64,000 nucleotides of DNA from Hymenobacter sp. DG01 (GTDB lineage: Bacteria > Bacteroidota > Bacteroidia > Cytophagales > Hymenobacteraceae): assembly GCF_006352025.1 (NCBI RefSeq), contig NZ_CP040936.1, forward strand, positions 3,660,001 through 3,724,000. Direction: 5' to 3'. Numbering within the stretch: position 1 is the first letter of the stretch; every line of letters starts with the position of its first letter. The notes under the pieces were generated by a model. The model saw only the letters and a program-made list of their open reading frames with translations. It was not told where the DNA came from and did no database searches. Below are positions 37,415 through 43,243 of the stretch, piece after piece. Both the position numbers and the translations under genes were made by a program.

Positions 37415-38521
37415 CTACTCCAGATTCTCGCGGTTCATCACGCGGTTCTGGCGGTTGATGGACTCCAGGTGCACGGCGTCGAAGTATTTGAGGATGAAGT
37501 CGCGGGTGAGGCCCAGCCGGTTACCCTGCTGAATGCCGCGCTCCAGAATCTCGTTCCAGCGGCTGGTTTGCAGAATGGTGATGCCGTTATCCTTCTTGTA
37601 CTGTCCGATGCTCTCGGCTACCTGCATGCGGCGGCCCAATAGGTGCAGAATCTCATCATCGAGCTGGTTGATTTGGGTACGCAGCTGATTGAGCTTGTTG
37701 AGAAACTCCTGCTGGTCGGTGGTTTCGTGGCGCCAGATCAGGCCGTCGAGCAGCTCCGCGAGGCGCTGGGGCGTTACCTGCTGCTTGGCGTCGCTCCAGG
37801 CATTGTCGGGGTCAATGTGCGACTCCAGCATCAGCCCGTCGAAGTCCAGGTCGATGCTTTTCTGGGCCACGCTGGCCAGGCCAGTGCGGTTGCCGCAGAT
37901 GTGGCTCGGGTCGCAGATGATGGGGAGGTCGGGCAGGCGGCGCTTCATCTCAATCGGCAGGTGCCACATGGGGGCGTTGCGGTACTCGGTGTTGCCGTAG
38001 CTGGCGAAGCCCCGGTGAATCAGCCCGATTTTCTGGTTGCCTACCTTGGCCAGGCGCTCCACGGCGCCCATCCACAGCTCCAGGTCGGGGTGCACGGGGT
38101 TCTTGATGAACACCGGAATATCTACGCCCCGCAGCGCATCGGCCAGGGCCTGCACCGAGAAGGGGTTTACCGTGGTGCGGGCCCCAATCCAGAGCACGTC
38201 CACATCGAAGGCCAAGGCGTCTTCTACGTGCTTGGGTGTAGCTACTTCCACGGTGGTGGGCAGGCCCGTCAGCTGCTTGGCGCGCTGCAGCCAGGGGAGG
38301 CCCTTGGTGCCAATGCCCTCGAACAGACCGGGTTTGGTGCGGGGCTTCCAGATGCCGGCCCGGAGCATATCTACCTTGCCGGTGGCGGCTAGCTGAGTGC
38401 AGGTGGCAATAAGCTGTTCCTCGGTTTCGGCCGAGCACGGCCCGGAAATGATAAGCGGCTTTTTGGCAAGGAATTTCGGGTGCTCAGCCGCGTCGGCAGG
38501 AGAGGTGAGTAGCTGTTCCAT
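37415..38521 (-). CDS. Bifunctional 3-deoxy-7-phosphoheptulonate synthase/chorismate mutase
   Basis: A 368-residue protein. Residues about 1-265 are a KDO8P-type DAHP synthase (IISGPCSAETEEQL; RAGIWKPRTKPGLFEGIGTKGL; IHRGFASYGNTEYRNAP; IICDPSHICGN; LMLESHIDPDNAWSDA). Residues about 275-368 are an AroQ-type chorismate mutase helix set (LNQLRTQINQLDDEILHLLGRRMQVAESIGQYKK). It condenses phosphoenolpyruvate and erythrose-4-phosphate, and rearranges chorismate to prephenate. It is the last gene of the pheA-aminotransferase-tyrA unit, though separated from tyrA by 209 nt holding a family C repeat. Confidence 0.95.
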   Translation of the reverse strand: MEQLLTSPADAAEHPKFLAKKPLIISGPCSAETEEQLIATCTQLAATGKVDMLRAGIWKPRTKPGLFEGIGTKGLPWLQRAKQLTGLPTTVEVATPKHVEDALAFDVDVLWIGARTTVNPFSVQALADALRGVDIPVFIKNPVHPDLELWMGAVERLAKVGNQKIGLIHRGFASYGNTEYRNAPMWHLPIEMKRRLPDLPIICDPSHICGNRTGLASVAQKSIDLDFDGLMLESHIDPDNAWSDAKQQVTPQRLAELLDGLIWRHETTDQQEFLNKLNQLRTQINQLDDEILHLLGRRMQVAESIGQYKKDNGITILQTSRWNEILERGIQQGNRLGLTRDFILKYFDAVHLESINRQNRVMNRENLE

Positions 38522-38730: not shown

Positions 38731-39576
38731 CTACTTCAAAATCTTCCTGATCAAATTCGCCTGTTCGATTTGCTGATAAACAGCCGAGTAGTCTTCCTGA
38801 TGGATCAGCTCACGCAGATGCTGCAGCTGGTGAATGTGCTCGTCGAGCACGTCCAGCACGTTCACGCGGTTCTGGCGGAAGATGGGCACCCACATATCCG
38901 GCGAGCTTTTGGCCAGGCGCACCGTCGATTCAAAGCCGCCGCTGGCCAAAGCAAAGATTTGCTGTTCTTCCTTTTCCTTCTCTAACACCGTGAGGGCTAG
39001 CGCGAAAGAGGTAATGTGGGAAATATGCGAGATGTAGGCCGTGTGCAGGTCGTGGGCCGTGGCATCCATGTACACCAGCTGCATGGCCAGGCGGCCGAAT
39101 ACGGCCTCCACCCGGGCCACGGCGTCCTCGGCGCTGCGGGCCGCGTCGCAGATAACCAGGGTTTTGCCCTTAAACAAGCCCGGCACCGCCGCCGAAGGGC
39201 CGGAGTACTCAGTGCCGGCCATGGGGTGCACGGCCACAAACCGGGTGCGGTGGGGGTGGGCTTCCACGGCGGCCAGCAGGGTAGCCTTGGTCGAGCCCAC
39301 ATCGATGACCACCTGGCGGTCGGTGGCCGCGTCCAGTACTTGGGGTAGCACACCCAGCATGGCGTCCATGGGCACGGCCACCACTACCAGGTCGGCGCGC
39401 TGCACGGCTTCGGCTAAGTCGTTTGCTACCTCATCTACCAGCCCTAAAGCTATGGCTTGCCGCTGGTTTTCAGGGCTGTGGTCCACTCCAATGATGTGGT
39501 GGGCTAGGCCGGTTTCCTTGAGGCTAAGGGCCAGCGAGCCGCCAATCAGGCCTATTCCGATGATAGTAACTACCAT
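38731..39576 (-). CDS. tyrA: Prephenate dehydrogenase
   Basis: A 281-residue TyrA-type protein. NAD-binding start VVTIIGIGLIGGSLALSLKETG, then VVVAVPMDAMLGVLP, VIDVGSTKATLLAAV, FVAVHPMAGTEYSGPSAA and ATAHDLHTAYISHISHITSFALAL, the helical part that closes over prephenate. It oxidatively decarboxylates prephenate to 4-hydroxyphenylpyruvate for tyrosine synthesis. It follows the aminotransferase gene by 96 nt on the same strand; the DAHP synthase gene follows. No fused ACT or chorismate-mutase domain. Confidence 0.95.
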   Translation of the reverse strand: MVVTIIGIGLIGGSLALSLKETGLAHHIIGVDHSPENQRQAIALGLVDEVANDLAEAVQRADLVVVAVPMDAMLGVLPQVLDAATDRQVVIDVGSTKATLLAAVEAHPHRTRFVAVHPMAGTEYSGPSAAVPGLFKGKTLVICDAARSAEDAVARVEAVFGRLAMQLVYMDATAHDLHTAYISHISHITSFALALTVLEKEKEEQQIFALASGGFESTVRLAKSSPDMWVPIFRQNRVNVLDVLDEHIHQLQHLRELIHQEDYSAVYQQIEQANLIRKILK

Positions 39577-39672: not shown

Positions 39673-40836
39673 TCAGGATACAGCCCGTACCCGCTCCAAT
39701 GCCGCCTGCAGCACCTCCGTGGTCTGGCACAAACTCACCCGGATAAACCCGTTGCCGTTGCTGCCAAAGATGCCGCCCGGCGTAATGAACACATTGGCGT
39801 TATAGAGCAGCTCGTCGCTGAGGGCGTAGCCATCGGCATACCCGGCCGGAATGGTGGCCCACACAAACAAGCCTACCTGGTTCCGGCTGTACGAGCACCC
39901 GATGACGTCGAGCAGCTCAAACACCAGTTCCCGGCGGGCGGCGTAGTGGGCGTTCAGCTCCTGGTACCAGGTAGCATCCAGGTTGAGGGCTTCCACGGCG
40001 GCCAGCTGCACCGGCAGAAACATCCCGGAGTCGAGGTTGCTCTTGAAGCGCAGCACCTCCTGCAGCAGATCGGCCCGGCCTGCCAGCATGCCCACGCGCC
40101 ACCCGGCCATGTTGTGCGACTTACTCAGAGAGTTCAGCTCCAGCACCACCTCCCGCGCGCCCGGCACGGCCAGCAGGCTCTGGGGCTGCTCCGTGTTCAG
40201 GATAAAGCTGTACGGGTTGTCGTGAACCAGCAGGATGTTATGCTCTGTGGCGAAGGTCACCAGCTTCGCGAAGAACGCGGTATCGGCGGCGGTACCAGTG
40301 GGCATGTGGGGGTAGTTTACCCACATCAGCTTCACCCGGCTCAGGTCGCGGCGGGCCAAAGTTTCCAGGTCGGGCAGCCAGTGGTTGCCGGCGGTTAGGT
40401 CGTACTCCACGGGGGTAGCGCCGCTCAGGTGGGCGGCAGCCCGATAGGCGGGGTAGCCTGGGTTGGGAATCAGCACCTCGTCGCCGGCCTCCAGAAATGT
40501 CATGCTCACATGAATAATGCCCTCCTTGGAACCCAGCAGGGGTAGGATTTCCGCTTCCGGGTCTAGCGTTACGCCGTACTGCCGCTGGTACCAGCCGGCC
40601 ATGGCCTGGCGCAGGGCGGGCACCCCCTTGTAGCTCTGGTAGGCGTGCGTATTGGGCTGCTCGGCCGCTTGCGTGAGAGCCGCTACTACCCTGGGGTGAG
40701 GCGGCAGATCAGGAGAGCCAATGCCCAGGTTGATGATCTGCTTGCCGGCTTTGTTGAGGCCGTCAATTTCCCGCAGCTTCTGCGAGAAGTAGTACTCCTG
40801 AGTATGCTGAAGGCGGCTGGCTACGGAAACGTGCAT
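39673..40836 (-). CDS. Class I/II PLP-dependent aminotransferase (aromatic pathway)
   Basis: A 387-residue aminotransferase from the ATG 40836 (MHVSVASRLQHTQEYYFSQK). Motifs: IINLGIGSPDLPPHP, AYQSYKGVPALRQAMAGWY, LLGSKEGIIHV, MWVNYPHMPTGTAA, and the PLP-lysine region LNSLSKSHNMAGWRVGMLAG. Between pheA and tyrA it most likely transaminates phenylpyruvate and 4-hydroxyphenylpyruvate (or prephenate) to phenylalanine and tyrosine. Open frame continues upstream through the repeat into pheA but without family similarity. Substrate is inferred from position. Confidence 0.92.
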   Translation of the reverse strand: MHVSVASRLQHTQEYYFSQKLREIDGLNKAGKQIINLGIGSPDLPPHPRVVAALTQAAEQPNTHAYQSYKGVPALRQAMAGWYQRQYGVTLDPEAEILPLLGSKEGIIHVSMTFLEAGDEVLIPNPGYPAYRAAAHLSGATPVEYDLTAGNHWLPDLETLARRDLSRVKLMWVNYPHMPTGTAADTAFFAKLVTFATEHNILLVHDNPYSFILNTEQPQSLLAVPGAREVVLELNSLSKSHNMAGWRVGMLAGRADLLQEVLRFKSNLDSGMFLPVQLAAVEALNLDATWYQELNAHYAARRELVFELLDVIGCSYSRNQVGLFVWATIPAGYADGYALSDELLYNANVFITPGGIFGSNGNGFIRVSLCQTTEVLQAALERVRAVS

Positions 40837-40860
40837 AGGGCTTTTTATGAGTTCTTTTCT

Positions 40861-40952
40861 GTCGTCCTGAATGAAGCGAAGGACCTTAACCGCTTCGTTG
40901 GGGGTAGGGAAAATGAGCTTCTTTAGAGGTCCTTCGCTCTGCTCAGGATGAC
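40861..40952. repeat. Dispersed inverted repeat, family B, copy 2
   Basis: Arms 40861-40886 and 40927-40952 pair imperfectly around the shared cores GTCNTCCTGA and GCGAAGGACCT, as in copy 1 at 18498-18593. It is located between pheA and the aminotransferase gene, inside the operon. Confidence 0.8.
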
Positions 40953-40975
40953 GGAGAAAGGCAGTTGCTGTATTC

Positions 40976-41806
40976 TTAATGCGTATCGCCCTTATGATAA
41001 ACTCCCAGCACTTCCAGACCCTCCGTAAGTGGAGTAATGGCCTGGATAGCAGCCTGCAGCTGTTCAGGCTGCTCGAATTCCAGGTCGGCGTGGAAGTAGT
41101 AGTGCCAGGTGCTGCCCGGCTTGGGGCATGACTGCAGCTTGGATAGGTTGATGCCCAGCTCGGCAATGCGCACCAGTACCCGCGCCAGACTGCCCTGAGC
41201 GTGAGCAGTATGGAAGTAGAGCGAGGCTTTGTTGGGCTGCTCCACCTCCCGGGCATTTTCGGGGCGGGCTACCACCAGAAAACGGGTGTAGTTCTTTTTC
41301 TCGGAGTGGATATCGGCCTGCAGAATGGGCAACCCGAACAGCTCTGAGGCCAGGGTGCCGGCCACGGCCGCCACGCCCGCGCGGCTACCCTCCCGGATGC
41401 GCTGGGCGCTCAGGGCCGTATCCTCCGTTTCCACCAGGCGCCAGTGTGGGTAGCGGCTGAGGTAGTCGGCGCACTGCAGCAGGGCCATGGGGTGGGAGTG
41501 CACTTCGGTAATATCCTCCAGTTGCTGTCCCGGCAGGGCCATCAGGTGCTGGCGGATGTGCAGATACGTCTCGCCCATCACCCGCAGCCCCGACTTGCGT
41601 AGCAAGGTGTAGTTGGGCAGAATGCTGCCGGCAATGGAGTTTTCGATGGCCAGTACCGCCGCCCCGGCCGTGCCCCGCACCACCGAATTCACTACCTCTC
41701 CAAACGTGGCGCAGGTCACTACCTCCACCGCCGGGCTAAAGAAGCGCCGGGCGGCTATCTGGTGGAAACTGCCTTCGAAACCCTGAATGGCAACGGCTGG
41801 GAGCAT
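40976..41806 (-). CDS. pheA: Prephenate dehydratase
   Basis: A 276-residue protein. Catalytic part: VAIQGFEGSFHQIAA, VLAIENSIAGSILPNYTLL, VHSHPMALLQCADYL, and TRFLVVARP, in the usual order. C-terminal ACT domain (about 185-270): ASLYFHTAHAQGSLARVLVRIAELGINLSKLQSCP, the allosteric phenylalanine-binding module. It converts prephenate to phenylpyruvate. It is the first structural gene of the aromatic unit, and its 5' leader (41807-42165) carries two Phe/Tyr leader peptides and two terminators, so both enzyme feedback and transcription attenuation are expected. Confidence 0.96.
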   Translation of the reverse strand: MLPAVAIQGFEGSFHQIAARRFFSPAVEVVTCATFGEVVNSVVRGTAGAAVLAIENSIAGSILPNYTLLRKSGLRVMGETYLHIRQHLMALPGQQLEDITEVHSHPMALLQCADYLSRYPHWRLVETEDTALSAQRIREGSRAGVAAVAGTLASELFGLPILQADIHSEKKNYTRFLVVARPENAREVEQPNKASLYFHTAHAQGSLARVLVRIAELGINLSKLQSCPKPGSTWHYYFHADLEFEQPEQLQAAIQAITPLTEGLEVLGVYHKGDTH

Positions 41807-41829
41807 GATATTGGTAGTGAAAGGGTACT

Positions 41830-41857
41830 AAAAAAGGCCTCCGGAGTGCGGGGCCTT
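41830..41857 (-). terminator. Attenuator terminator 2, before pheA
   Basis: On the minus strand AAGGCC-CCG (41849-41857) pairs with CGG-A-GGCCTT (41834-41843) with one bulged A, and six T follow (complement of 41830-41835). It lies 27 nt after leader peptide 2 and 24 nt before pheA. Region 41902-41908 (CCGGGCC) in leader 2 can pair with the left arm and could act as antiterminator. Confidence 0.8.
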
Positions 41858-41884
41858 GGGTTTGTGGTGAAGGCTGCTCGTAGG

Positions 41885-41965
41885 TCAGCTTCGGCAAACA
41901 GGGCCCGGCTTCTTTGTAAAAAAGAAGCGGTAATAGCCGTAATAAAAGAAAGCTGGGGTGAGCAT
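41885..41965 (-). CDS. Phe/Tyr-rich leader peptide 2 of the pheA operon
   Basis: A 26-residue ORF: ATG at 41965, TGA at 41885-41887. It begins MLTPA and continues FFYYGYYRFFF, i.e. nine Phe/Tyr codons in eleven, then a basic, Pro-containing tail. It lies between terminator 1 and terminator 2. Its Phe/Tyr run overlaps one arm (41921-41928) of a hairpin GCTTCTTT/AAAGAAGC (other arm 41908-41915), so a ribosome stalled for lack of charged tRNA would disturb that hairpin. Too short for a functional product; read as a regulatory leader peptide. Confidence 0.85.
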   Translation of the reverse strand: MLTPAFFYYGYYRFFFTKKPGPVCRS

Positions 41966-41986
41966 GAGAAGCTAGTGCGTAAGCGT

Positions 41987-42021
41987 AAAAAAAGCGCCTC
42001 CCGAGGTTGTCGAGAGGCGCT
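41987..42021 (-). terminator. Attenuator terminator 1
   Basis: A 12-bp stem with one G-U pair (41993-42004 with 42010-42021) and a 5-nt loop is followed by seven T on the minus strand (complement of 41987-41993). It lies 40 nt after leader peptide 1. Its left arm GCCTCTCGA (42010-42018) can pair with TCGAGCGGC (42053-42061) just after leader 1, the expected antiterminator. Confidence 0.85.
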
Positions 42022-42061
42022 GTATGGTTTCGGTTAAAAAAGCTACAGGAGGGCCGCTCGA

Positions 42062-42121
42062 CTACGTGGTGGCGTAGTAGAAGTAATAGCTAAAAAAGAA
42101 GCGGCCGGTGTGCTGACGCAT
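42062..42121 (-). CDS. Phe/Tyr-rich leader peptide 1 of the pheA operon
   Basis: A 19-residue ORF with ATG at 42121 and TAG at 42062-42064, translating MRQHTGRFFFSYYFYYATT: four Phe and four Tyr codons within nine residues (8-16). Genes downstream make exactly these two amino acids. Codons 6-8 (42100-42106, GGCCGCT) can pair with AGCGGCC (42052-42058), the 1:2 hairpin of a classical attenuator; a stalled ribosome would prevent this and free 42053-42061 to pair with terminator 1. No Shine-Dalgarno sequence, as usual in this phylum. Initiated from the promoter at 42172-42204. Confidence 0.9.
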   Translation of the reverse strand: MRQHTGRFFFSYYFYYATT

Positions 42122-42171
42122 GAAAATCAAGTGCTTTGTGCTGGCAAGGTGAAGCGCATCTGCGGCAATTC

Positions 42172-42204
42172 CAAATTAATTTTTCAGAGATATATACGAA
42201 CAAA
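42172..42204 (-). promoter_or_regulatory. Putative promoter of the aromatic operon
   Basis: On the minus strand TTTG (42201-42204), 21-nt spacer, then TTAATTTG (42172-42179), 7 of 8 matches to TAnnTTTG. A small palindrome CGAAC-AAAC-GTTCG (42197-42210) overlaps the -33 element and could be an operator. Transcription would start about 40-50 nt before leader peptide 1. Confidence 0.5.
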
Positions 42205-42460
42205 CGTTCGGGAGCAGCGGGCCACCAGCGCAAACAGCCCGGATAGCGGAGGGTCAAGTATCAACAATTATTTATGTAATCAAAGTGTTGTATATCAATA
42301 AATTGCAATGATAATAGGGGTAGGTTTCGGTCTTTGGGGCAGGCAGTACGAAGGTTAGTTCTGGAAATTGGCACGGTTTTGTAATACTACCTCTTCAGAA
42401 GCCGGTAGCCACCCGCTGCGCACCCTTGGTAGCCGGCCCTTCCTTCCAATCCTTCCTGCC

Positions 42461-43243
42461 ATGAATACGAAGCGACTTTTCGGCCGCCTGGCCGCTGCTG
42501 CCCTTTTTGTTACCGCATTTGCTACGGCCTCCGAGGCTCAGATCCAGCCCCACCGCGTACCGAAGTATACGGGTCCGGCTCAGGCCCGCCCGGTTCGCTC
42601 TACGCCATCTTATTCTTCCTCGTCTTCCGCTACCGATGGGGTCAAGTTCGGCATCCGGGCCGGTGTGAACGTAACCGACTGGTCGGGCGACGCGGTGAAC
42701 AGCGTGATGGACCTGGCCGACTACACCAACGGGGCCATAACCAAGGACATGAAGACCGGCTTCCATGCCGGCCTGTATGCTACGCTGCCCCTGGGCCCGC
42801 GCTTTGCCATTGAGCCGGGGGTAGGCTACTCCGAGAAAGGTACCGTGCTTACGGGCCGCATTCCGCTGGAGCAGTTCGACTTCCTGAACGCCAAGGTGAA
42901 AGCCACCGCCCGCATGGCTTACCTTGATATTCCGGTGCTGGCTAAAGCCTACCTCACCGATGGGTTCTACGTGTTTGCCGGTCCGCAGGCTTCGGTGCTG
43001 CTCTCAGGTAAGGCCCGCGTGAATGCCAGCGCCCTGGGTTTCTCGGCCTTCAATGAGAACTTCGACATCAAAGACCAGTTCCGCCCCGTGGACTTTAGCG
43101 TGACGGGTGGCCTGGGCTACCAGTTCCAGAACGGCCTGGGCCTGAGCGCCGGCTACGACTACGGGCTCTCTTCCCTGGACAAAAACAATAATTTCGACGC
43201 CCAGAACCGCGTGATTAAGGCCTCCGTCAACTACTCGTTCTAA
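42461..43243 (+). CDS. Outer-membrane beta-barrel (porin-family) protein
   Basis: A 260-residue protein from ATG 42461 with a signal peptide (LAAAALFVTAFATASEAQ). A Ser-rich linker (SYSSSSSATDG) is followed by a barrel typical of PF13568-type Bacteroidota proteins: FGIRAGVNVTDWSGD, FHAGLYATLPLGPRFAIEPGVGYSEKG, MAYLDIPVLAKAYLTDGFYVFAGPQASVLL and the end VIKASVNYSF, with a terminal Phe as in many outer-membrane proteins. Probably an 8-stranded outer-membrane barrel; function unknown. It is divergent from the pheA leader and followed by a terminator. Confidence 0.85.
   Translation: MNTKRLFGRLAAAALFVTAFATASEAQIQPHRVPKYTGPAQARPVRSTPSYSSSSSATDGVKFGIRAGVNVTDWSGDAVNSVMDLADYTNGAITKDMKTGFHAGLYATLPLGPRFAIEPGVGYSEKGTVLTGRIPLEQFDFLNAKVKATARMAYLDIPVLAKAYLTDGFYVFAGPQASVLLSGKARVNASALGFSAFNENFDIKDQFRPVDFSVTGGLGYQFQNGLGLSAGYDYGLSSLDKNNNFDAQNRVIKASVNYSF

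Follow-up and report, generated by a model that had tools for sequence, protein, structure and literature searches.

The window, that is, the 64-kb stretch of Hymenobacter sp. DG01 DNA analysed here, carries an operon formed by pheA, an aminotransferase gene, tyrA and a gene for DAHP synthase fused to chorismate mutase, with both phenylalanine (Phe) and tyrosine (Tyr) as products. The domain matches of the four genes agree with the Phe and Tyr synthesis operon proposed in an initial annotation, made from the sequence alone. Two leader ORFs rich in Phe and Tyr lie within the 315 nt before pheA; a hairpin and a T run come after each of them (hereafter, each such unit is a cassette), and the second terminator ends 24 nt from the start of pheA (Table 1). 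For the two leader ORFs, the coordinates and peptides given in the initial annotation were correct, and both hairpins, with T runs of seven and six, were found again by folding at the positions it had reported. Hairpin 1 was also listed by a simple consensus terminator scan, from which hairpin 2, a bulged stem, was absent. A dispersed repeat, palindromic in part and matched 39 times in the genome, has a copy in the gap between pheA and the aminotransferase gene (40838-40975).

Table 1. Features of the pheA operon and of the region upstream of it (window coordinates; folds are predictions)
Feature	Position	Strand	Basis or remark
Promoter-like motif: -33 TTTG (42172-42175), 20 nt, -7 CACCTTGC (42144-42151)	42144-42175	-	
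Leader ORF 1, MRQHTGRFFFSYYFYYATT	42062-42121	-	Counterpart as first cassette in 82/105 Hymenobacter loci
Cassette 1 region 1 (GGCCGCTT), within leader 1	42099-42106	-	Predicted fold, partner 42052-42059
Cassette 1 region 2 (GAGCGGCC)	42052-42059	-	Predicted fold
Cassette 1 antiterminator, regions 2:3	42009-42062	-	Predicted with ribosome stalled on Phe/Tyr codons
Hairpin 1 (terminator 1), -21.5 kcal/mol	41993-42021	-	
Terminator 1 with T7 (first T closes the stem)	41987-42021	-	Covariation
Leader ORF 2, MLTPAFFYYGYYRFFFTKKPGPVCRS, with FFYYGYYRFFF inside	41885-41965	-	
Cassette 2 hairpin 1:2, within leader 2	41905-41930	-	Arg-Phe-Phe-Phe codons against Lys-Lys-Pro codons
Cassette 2 antiterminator, regions 2:3	41848-41909	-	Folding and covariation
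Hairpin 2 (terminator 2), -12.7 kcal/mol	41834-41857	-	
Terminator 2 with T6 (first two T in the stem)	41830-41857	-	Covariation
pheA, prephenate dehydratase	40976-41806	-	PF00800, E 1e-55
Aminotransferase class I/II	39673-40839	-	PF00155; start approximate, listed ORF extends back into pheA
tyrA, prephenate dehydrogenase	38731-39576	-	PF02153/PF20463; NF006307 above cut-off
DAHP synthase fused to chorismate mutase	37415-38521	-	PF00793 and PF01817

The presence of a pair of Phe/Tyr leaders before pheA is not due to chance. Phe and Tyr codons account for 42% of leader 1 and 34% of leader 2, as compared with 5.7% of the operon genes. When leaders were defined by an ATG start, a length of 8-45 aa and at least six Phe or Tyr within eight residues, both strands of the 64 kb yielded such ORFs at these two places only, and 20 Markov-1 simulated windows yielded none. 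Runs of five Phe/Tyr codons are found at 33 sites in the whole genome from which the window was taken; 30 of the sites were given as loci, and among these only the pheA site combines a short ORF with a terminator.

A PheA match was detected in 107 of 120 Hymenobacter genomes, and the upstream region was usable at 105 loci (we excluded G107, whose locus L106 is at a contig edge, and G114, whose match spans 25 aa, and dropped a second fragment in G099, L107). The initial annotation had named conserved Phe/Tyr runs in relatives as support, and these were indeed found, in both cassettes, at 82 of the 105 loci, six of which (L012, L020, L022, L023, L103 and L104) were assigned to the tandem class by hand; the other 23 loci have a single cassette. 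Within the tandem set, at least two Phe and two Tyr codons are present in 81 of the 82 leader 1 ORFs and in all 82 leader 2 ORFs. The similarity between cassettes 1 and 2 within a genome reaches z values of 11-13 in L020, L022 and L023 with a median of 2.9 overall, these scores being inflated by low complexity, so that we do not claim that the two cassettes are, in general, recent duplicates. Wherever a locus extended far enough to tell, the operon genes stood in the same order whether one or two cassettes were present; a difference in operon content between the two classes was rejected.

The loss of one cassette has occurred in two Hymenobacter clades, which comprise the 23 single loci. In all 23 the remaining cassette is nearer to cassette 1 than to cassette 2, so that the cassette proximal to pheA appears to be the one lost in those clades. 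In addition, leader 2 of L104 is devoid of the usual stop codon, with terminator 2 retained, and leader 2 has fewer Phe/Tyr residues in L012 and L103. These three loci, and the 23 that live with a single cassette before the same operon, would be expected if only one gate were regulatory and the other a redundant duplicate, slowly decaying, whose duplication and loss are nearly neutral. We regard this as improbable: both cassettes are kept in the 82 tandem loci down to a PheA identity to the window of 55-58%, with at least eight terminator pairs for both cassettes in every one of the 82, and in two genomes that have lost pheA (L319 and L320; see below) both leaders were altered while both terminators stayed intact.

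A promoter-like motif lies upstream of leader 1. Of the 105 Hymenobacter loci, 82 had the pattern TnTG-N17..22-[TC]AnnTTG before leader 1, as compared with 2.1 for shuffles, this being a post hoc pattern, set in its final form only after the sequences had been inspected; a stricter pattern, set earlier, was present in 20 of 105 loci against 0.6 in shuffles. The -7 part was found in 79 of the 105 loci, at a median of 28 nt before the first ATG (ATG1). Neither a sigma-70 scan of the window nor a search for the exact Bacteroides-type motif was informative. Over the 82 tandem loci, the distance from the end of terminator 1 to the ATG of leader 2 (ATG2) is 10-28 nt (median 23), not enough to house a promoter outside terminator 1, and one locus of the 82 has a -7-like element in the interval that runs from terminator 1 (less 30 nt) to ATG2. 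Judging from this spacing and from the one promoter-like motif before leader 1, the two cassettes are likely to be carried on one transcript. Cassette 1 could instead end a separate small transcript, such as a small RNA or a peptide gene, with cassette 2 attenuating pheA from a promoter of its own. The strength of terminator 1 would suit such an arrangement, as would the matches of Rfam small RNAs around hairpin 1, all of them sub-threshold. The Rfam search, of positions 41500-42500 and up to E 1, returned three matches, none of which reached the gathering score or was to a T-box or riboswitch. We consider a separate small transcript very unlikely, however, since the gap before ATG2 is too short for a promoter and almost always devoid of a -7-like element, and since the cassette that precedes pheA in the 23 single loci is invariably of type 1.

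In both cassettes, a segment at or after the end of the leader is able to pair with either the leader interior or the 5′ arm of the terminator. We placed a ribosome on the transcript and folded the RNA up to the terminator loop, with the 3′ terminator arm absent. In these folds the predicted sequestration of the 5′ arm of cassette 1 was 0.79 when the ribosome was stalled on the Phe/Tyr codons and 0.26 when it had reached the stop codon (shuffled spacer, 0.54); for cassette 2 the values were 0.72 and 0.26 (shuffled spacer, 0.55). The difference between stall and stop exceeded 0.2 in 82 of 82 loci for cassette 1 and in 73 of 82 for cassette 2; the two cassettes lay above their own shuffled mean in 82 and 77 loci, respectively, and were matched by at most one of 20 shuffles in 62 and 28 loci. 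Over the 82 loci, regions 2 and 3 form a median of 12 pairs in cassette 1 (minimum 6) and of 8 in cassette 2 (minimum 5). Equilibrium folding with the full terminator favoured termination almost wherever the ribosome was placed, with one codon as the exception in cassette 1 and a terminator value of at least 0.80 in cassette 2. Because the terminator wins at equilibrium, antitermination would have to be kinetic; folding of this kind, in which no antitermination was seen, was rejected as a test of it and replaced by folding to the terminator loop. With no ribosome on the RNA, the 5′ arm was still sequestered (0.69 for cassette 1 and 0.64 for cassette 2), that is, the free RNA favours the antiterminator while the 3′ arm is absent, and the state of the RNA without translation is uncertain in these models.

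Covariation was examined on MAFFT alignments against 300 column shuffles. For all six helices, the numbers of paired cells and of two-sided cells were above those of all 300 shuffles, which ignore relatedness; with the same reservation, the number of pairs with two-sided changes and of extra pair types was barely above the shuffles. The compensatory changes in both hairpins that the initial annotation had named as support are thus present, in terminators and antiterminators alike, insofar as shuffles that disregard relatedness can tell. Matching changes among lineages involve regions 2, 3 and 4; by eye, regions 2 and 3 read GUCGAG/CUCGAC in L001, GAACGAGC/GCUCGUUC in L070 and CCGAGGC/GCCUUCGG in L042. 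The 1:2 hairpin is paired in 87.6% of cells in cassette 2 and in 59.7% in cassette 1, a weak conservation. This, together with the sequestration of the 5′ arm in the free RNA, leaves the classical protector step poorly supported for cassette 1. On the folding models, then, competing antiterminator and terminator hairpins can form in both cassettes, and the case is the stronger for cassette 1.

Attenuation is a textbook single-gate mechanism, of which trpL, hisL and pheL are examples. The pheA locus of Hymenobacter resembles these in having, before the first gene, a short leader ORF with many codons for the product, a competing antiterminator and an intrinsic terminator, and differs from them in having two complete cassettes in series for the same signals. 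The ORFs, their codons, the terminators, the pairing potential, the promoter-like motif, the conserved layout and the codon change described below are the sequence evidence on which we propose, with considerable confidence, that the two cassettes are classical ribosome-mediated transcription attenuators in series, both sensing Phe and Tyr. Translation of the leaders, stalling, antitermination and termination are the inferred steps. When Phe- or Tyr-tRNA is scarce, a ribosome would stall in the FFFSYYFYY run of leader 1; the segment just 3′ of the ORF would then be free to capture the 5′ arm of terminator 1, RNA polymerase would pass the blocked terminator and leader 2 would be transcribed. A second ribosome, on leader 2, would submit the polymerase to the same Phe/Tyr decision at gate 2. 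As passage of both gates is the product of two probabilities, the response and the shut-off are expected to be steeper than with one gate, and a multiplicative response is what the analogy with other serial gates leads us to infer.

Genomes that have lost pheA offer an evolutionary test of product sensing by the leader codons, with no need of engineering. A PF00800 search of 14 Hymenobacter genomes, the 13 without a PheA match and G114, was negative in all 14 (G001, G003, G006, G021, G022, G043, G057, G060, G067, G087, G096, G097, G114 and G117) and positive in 14 of 14 controls. tyrA was sought in 12 of the 14 (G096 and G097 fell outside the search), with strong matches in five. Five pheA-less genomes (L316-L320) retain the aminotransferase, tyrA and DAHP synthase/chorismate mutase genes, and in all five the operon is still preceded by leaders with intact terminators. 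In the four of these with tandem cassettes, the leaders contain 3-4 Phe codons in total, fewer than in any of the 82 tandem genomes with pheA (5-13, mean 8.62), and 8-10 Tyr codons, for which the 82 average 8.05 and have no fewer than 6. Two of the four are devoid of Phe codons in leader 1, which has four Tyr codons. The leader 1 peptides of L319 and L320 are MLQSRALLSYYYLYATA and MLHSRIQLSYYYLYATA, respectively, and that of a pheA-bearing relative is MLQTRYFFGYYYFYATA. Leader 2 reads VASYY or ALSYY at a place where, among the 27 leaders listed for the pheA-bearing set, 24 have a pair of adjacent Phe codons at some point of the run. The Phe codons of the YFFPKK sequence in leader 2 of L319 and L320 lie in an arm able to pair with the Lys-Lys codons, and may have been retained because of this pairing. 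L316, which has a single cassette and in which fragments of pheA remain, shows no reduction: its four Phe codons fall within the range of 3-6 seen in the 23 single-cassette pheA-bearing loci. An unreduced number is to be expected if the loss is recent; it also counts against codon sensing. A tree of the aminotransferase and TyrA indicates three events of pheA loss (L317; L318-L320; L316), with Phe codons reduced in two of the three lineages, so that the correlation rests on few events. Overall, the pheA-less genomes support codon sensing, in that the codon content of the leaders appears to follow the products of the operon.

The same genomes bear on the idea that the leader peptides work as small proteins or in trans and that the terminators are constitutive. 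Trans-acting leader peptides are known, as peTrpL of Sinorhizobium illustrates (PMC7298713, excerpt). For the pheA leaders, this is hardly credible, as the peptides of the genus loci vary freely outside the Phe/Tyr run, the codon change that follows the loss of pheA tracks the amino acid produced and not the peptide sequence, and the antiterminator pairing is conserved.

Several known systems share part of this organization; the comparisons that follow draw on excerpts of the papers cited. Attenuation by the trp leader is described in PMC3641672, as is the Salmonella mgtCBR operon, in which two leader ORFs in one leader mRNA likewise control elongation into the operon; there, however, the signals differ (ATP and proline) and intrinsic terminators are absent, whereas both pheA leaders carry Phe and Tyr codons and both have intrinsic terminators. 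Closer in logic are the pseudo-cooperative tandem riboswitches for TPP, also two complete and independent gates in series for one signal, for which a steeper, more digital response is expected (PMC9481103, excerpt); our argument for a multiplicative response is that given for these same-ligand tandems. As far as sequence can tell, the pheA leader has the layout of such a pseudo-cooperative gate, with two complete gates for the same signals on one presumed transcript, but TPP aptamers bind their ligand directly, with no leader ORF (PMC9481103, excerpt). Tandem T-boxes before trp, ilv-leu and thrS in the Bacillota are serial gates for tRNA charging as well; they bind uncharged tRNA directly, again with no leader ORF, and belong to another phylum (PMC12452182, excerpt). 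Two leader peptides also precede ErmB, which unlike pheA is under translational attenuation in answer to erythromycin (PMC8274638, excerpt), and two terminators in series occur in the rimP leader of some Gammaproteobacteria, which concerns another gene and for which the excerpt names no Phe/Tyr leader peptides (PMC2965389). Single pheA leader elements have already been reported in Bacteroidota: in Flavobacterium psychrophilum, pheA is preceded by a structured 5′ element that is conserved across Flavobacteriaceae and has no Rfam hit, and strong signs of attenuation by leader peptides are reported upstream of amino acid operons (PMC9723704, excerpt). That excerpt mentions no tandem, whereas the Hymenobacter locus is tandem. 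A same-signal tandem leader-peptide attenuator was not found in searches of an open-access library, from which most subscription journals are absent, and excerpts of PMC4833913, PMC7366714, PMC1183508 and PMC1262725 contain no tandem amino acid leader. A conserved pair of gates answering to the same amino acids would demonstrate that regulation coupled to translation, like that by tandem riboswitches, can be arranged as a cascade that sharpens control.

In 13 of 13 Hymenobacter genomes examined (loci L261-L266, L268, L269-L273, L275 and L276), a single His-rich ORF (for example, QHHHHHGHHSSF) lies some 430-620 nt before a hisG match. The His operon was rejected as a second tandem case, because it has one His-rich ORF, with a terminator recognised at just one locus.

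Outside Hymenobacter, our script assigned 22 of 126 loci to the tandem form, to which L240, with two leaders and two terminators, was added by eye. By script, tandem loci make up 4 of 4 in the group designated g6, 0 of 8 in g2, 7 of 28 in g4/g5 and 11 of 20 Chitinophagaceae-type loci, all 11 of them Chitinophaga; the other class loci (n = 66) include no tandem, 47 single and 19 without a cassette. A leader without a recognised terminator is found in L193, L199 and L235. The sample comprised 40 of 61 family matches from outside the genus and 70 of 122 class matches, four of which repeat Hymenobacter, and some species occur twice across the collections (L190 resembles L144). Single Phe/Tyr leaders in front of pheA are thus widespread across the class, with tandem ones at scattered places. 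A FastTree PheA tree of 228 rows, built without 29 repeats or fragments and proteins shorter than 200 aa, and labelled by hand as tandem for L240 and as single for L147, L193, L199, L235, L245 and L246, requires eight changes between tandem and other, with weak branch support in places; on this tree the tandem loci may have one origin or several.

We lean, by a narrow measure, towards the broader view that Bacteroidota have repeatedly built same-signal two-stage attenuators, whose modules were gained, swapped and lost and whose codons were retuned to the products of the operon. If so, Phe codons would go and Tyr codons stay where pheA is lost, the amino acid output of an operon would be readable from its leaders, and these would be a translation-based counterpart of tandem riboswitches. 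Hymenobacter provides a ready comparison, with tandem, single and pheA-less genomes for the same operon.

Seven g5 loci (L166, L167, L170, L171, L180, L183 and L189) have a PheA that groups in the tree with L240 and L259 of another family, apart from the 29 other single-cassette loci of their family; on this placement, horizontal transfer of PheA is possible for the seven. The PheA of Hymenobacter itself (L001) matches those of Chitinophaga and Flavisolibacter at 56-62%, versus about 38-45% for those of g2, g4 and g5 within its own family.
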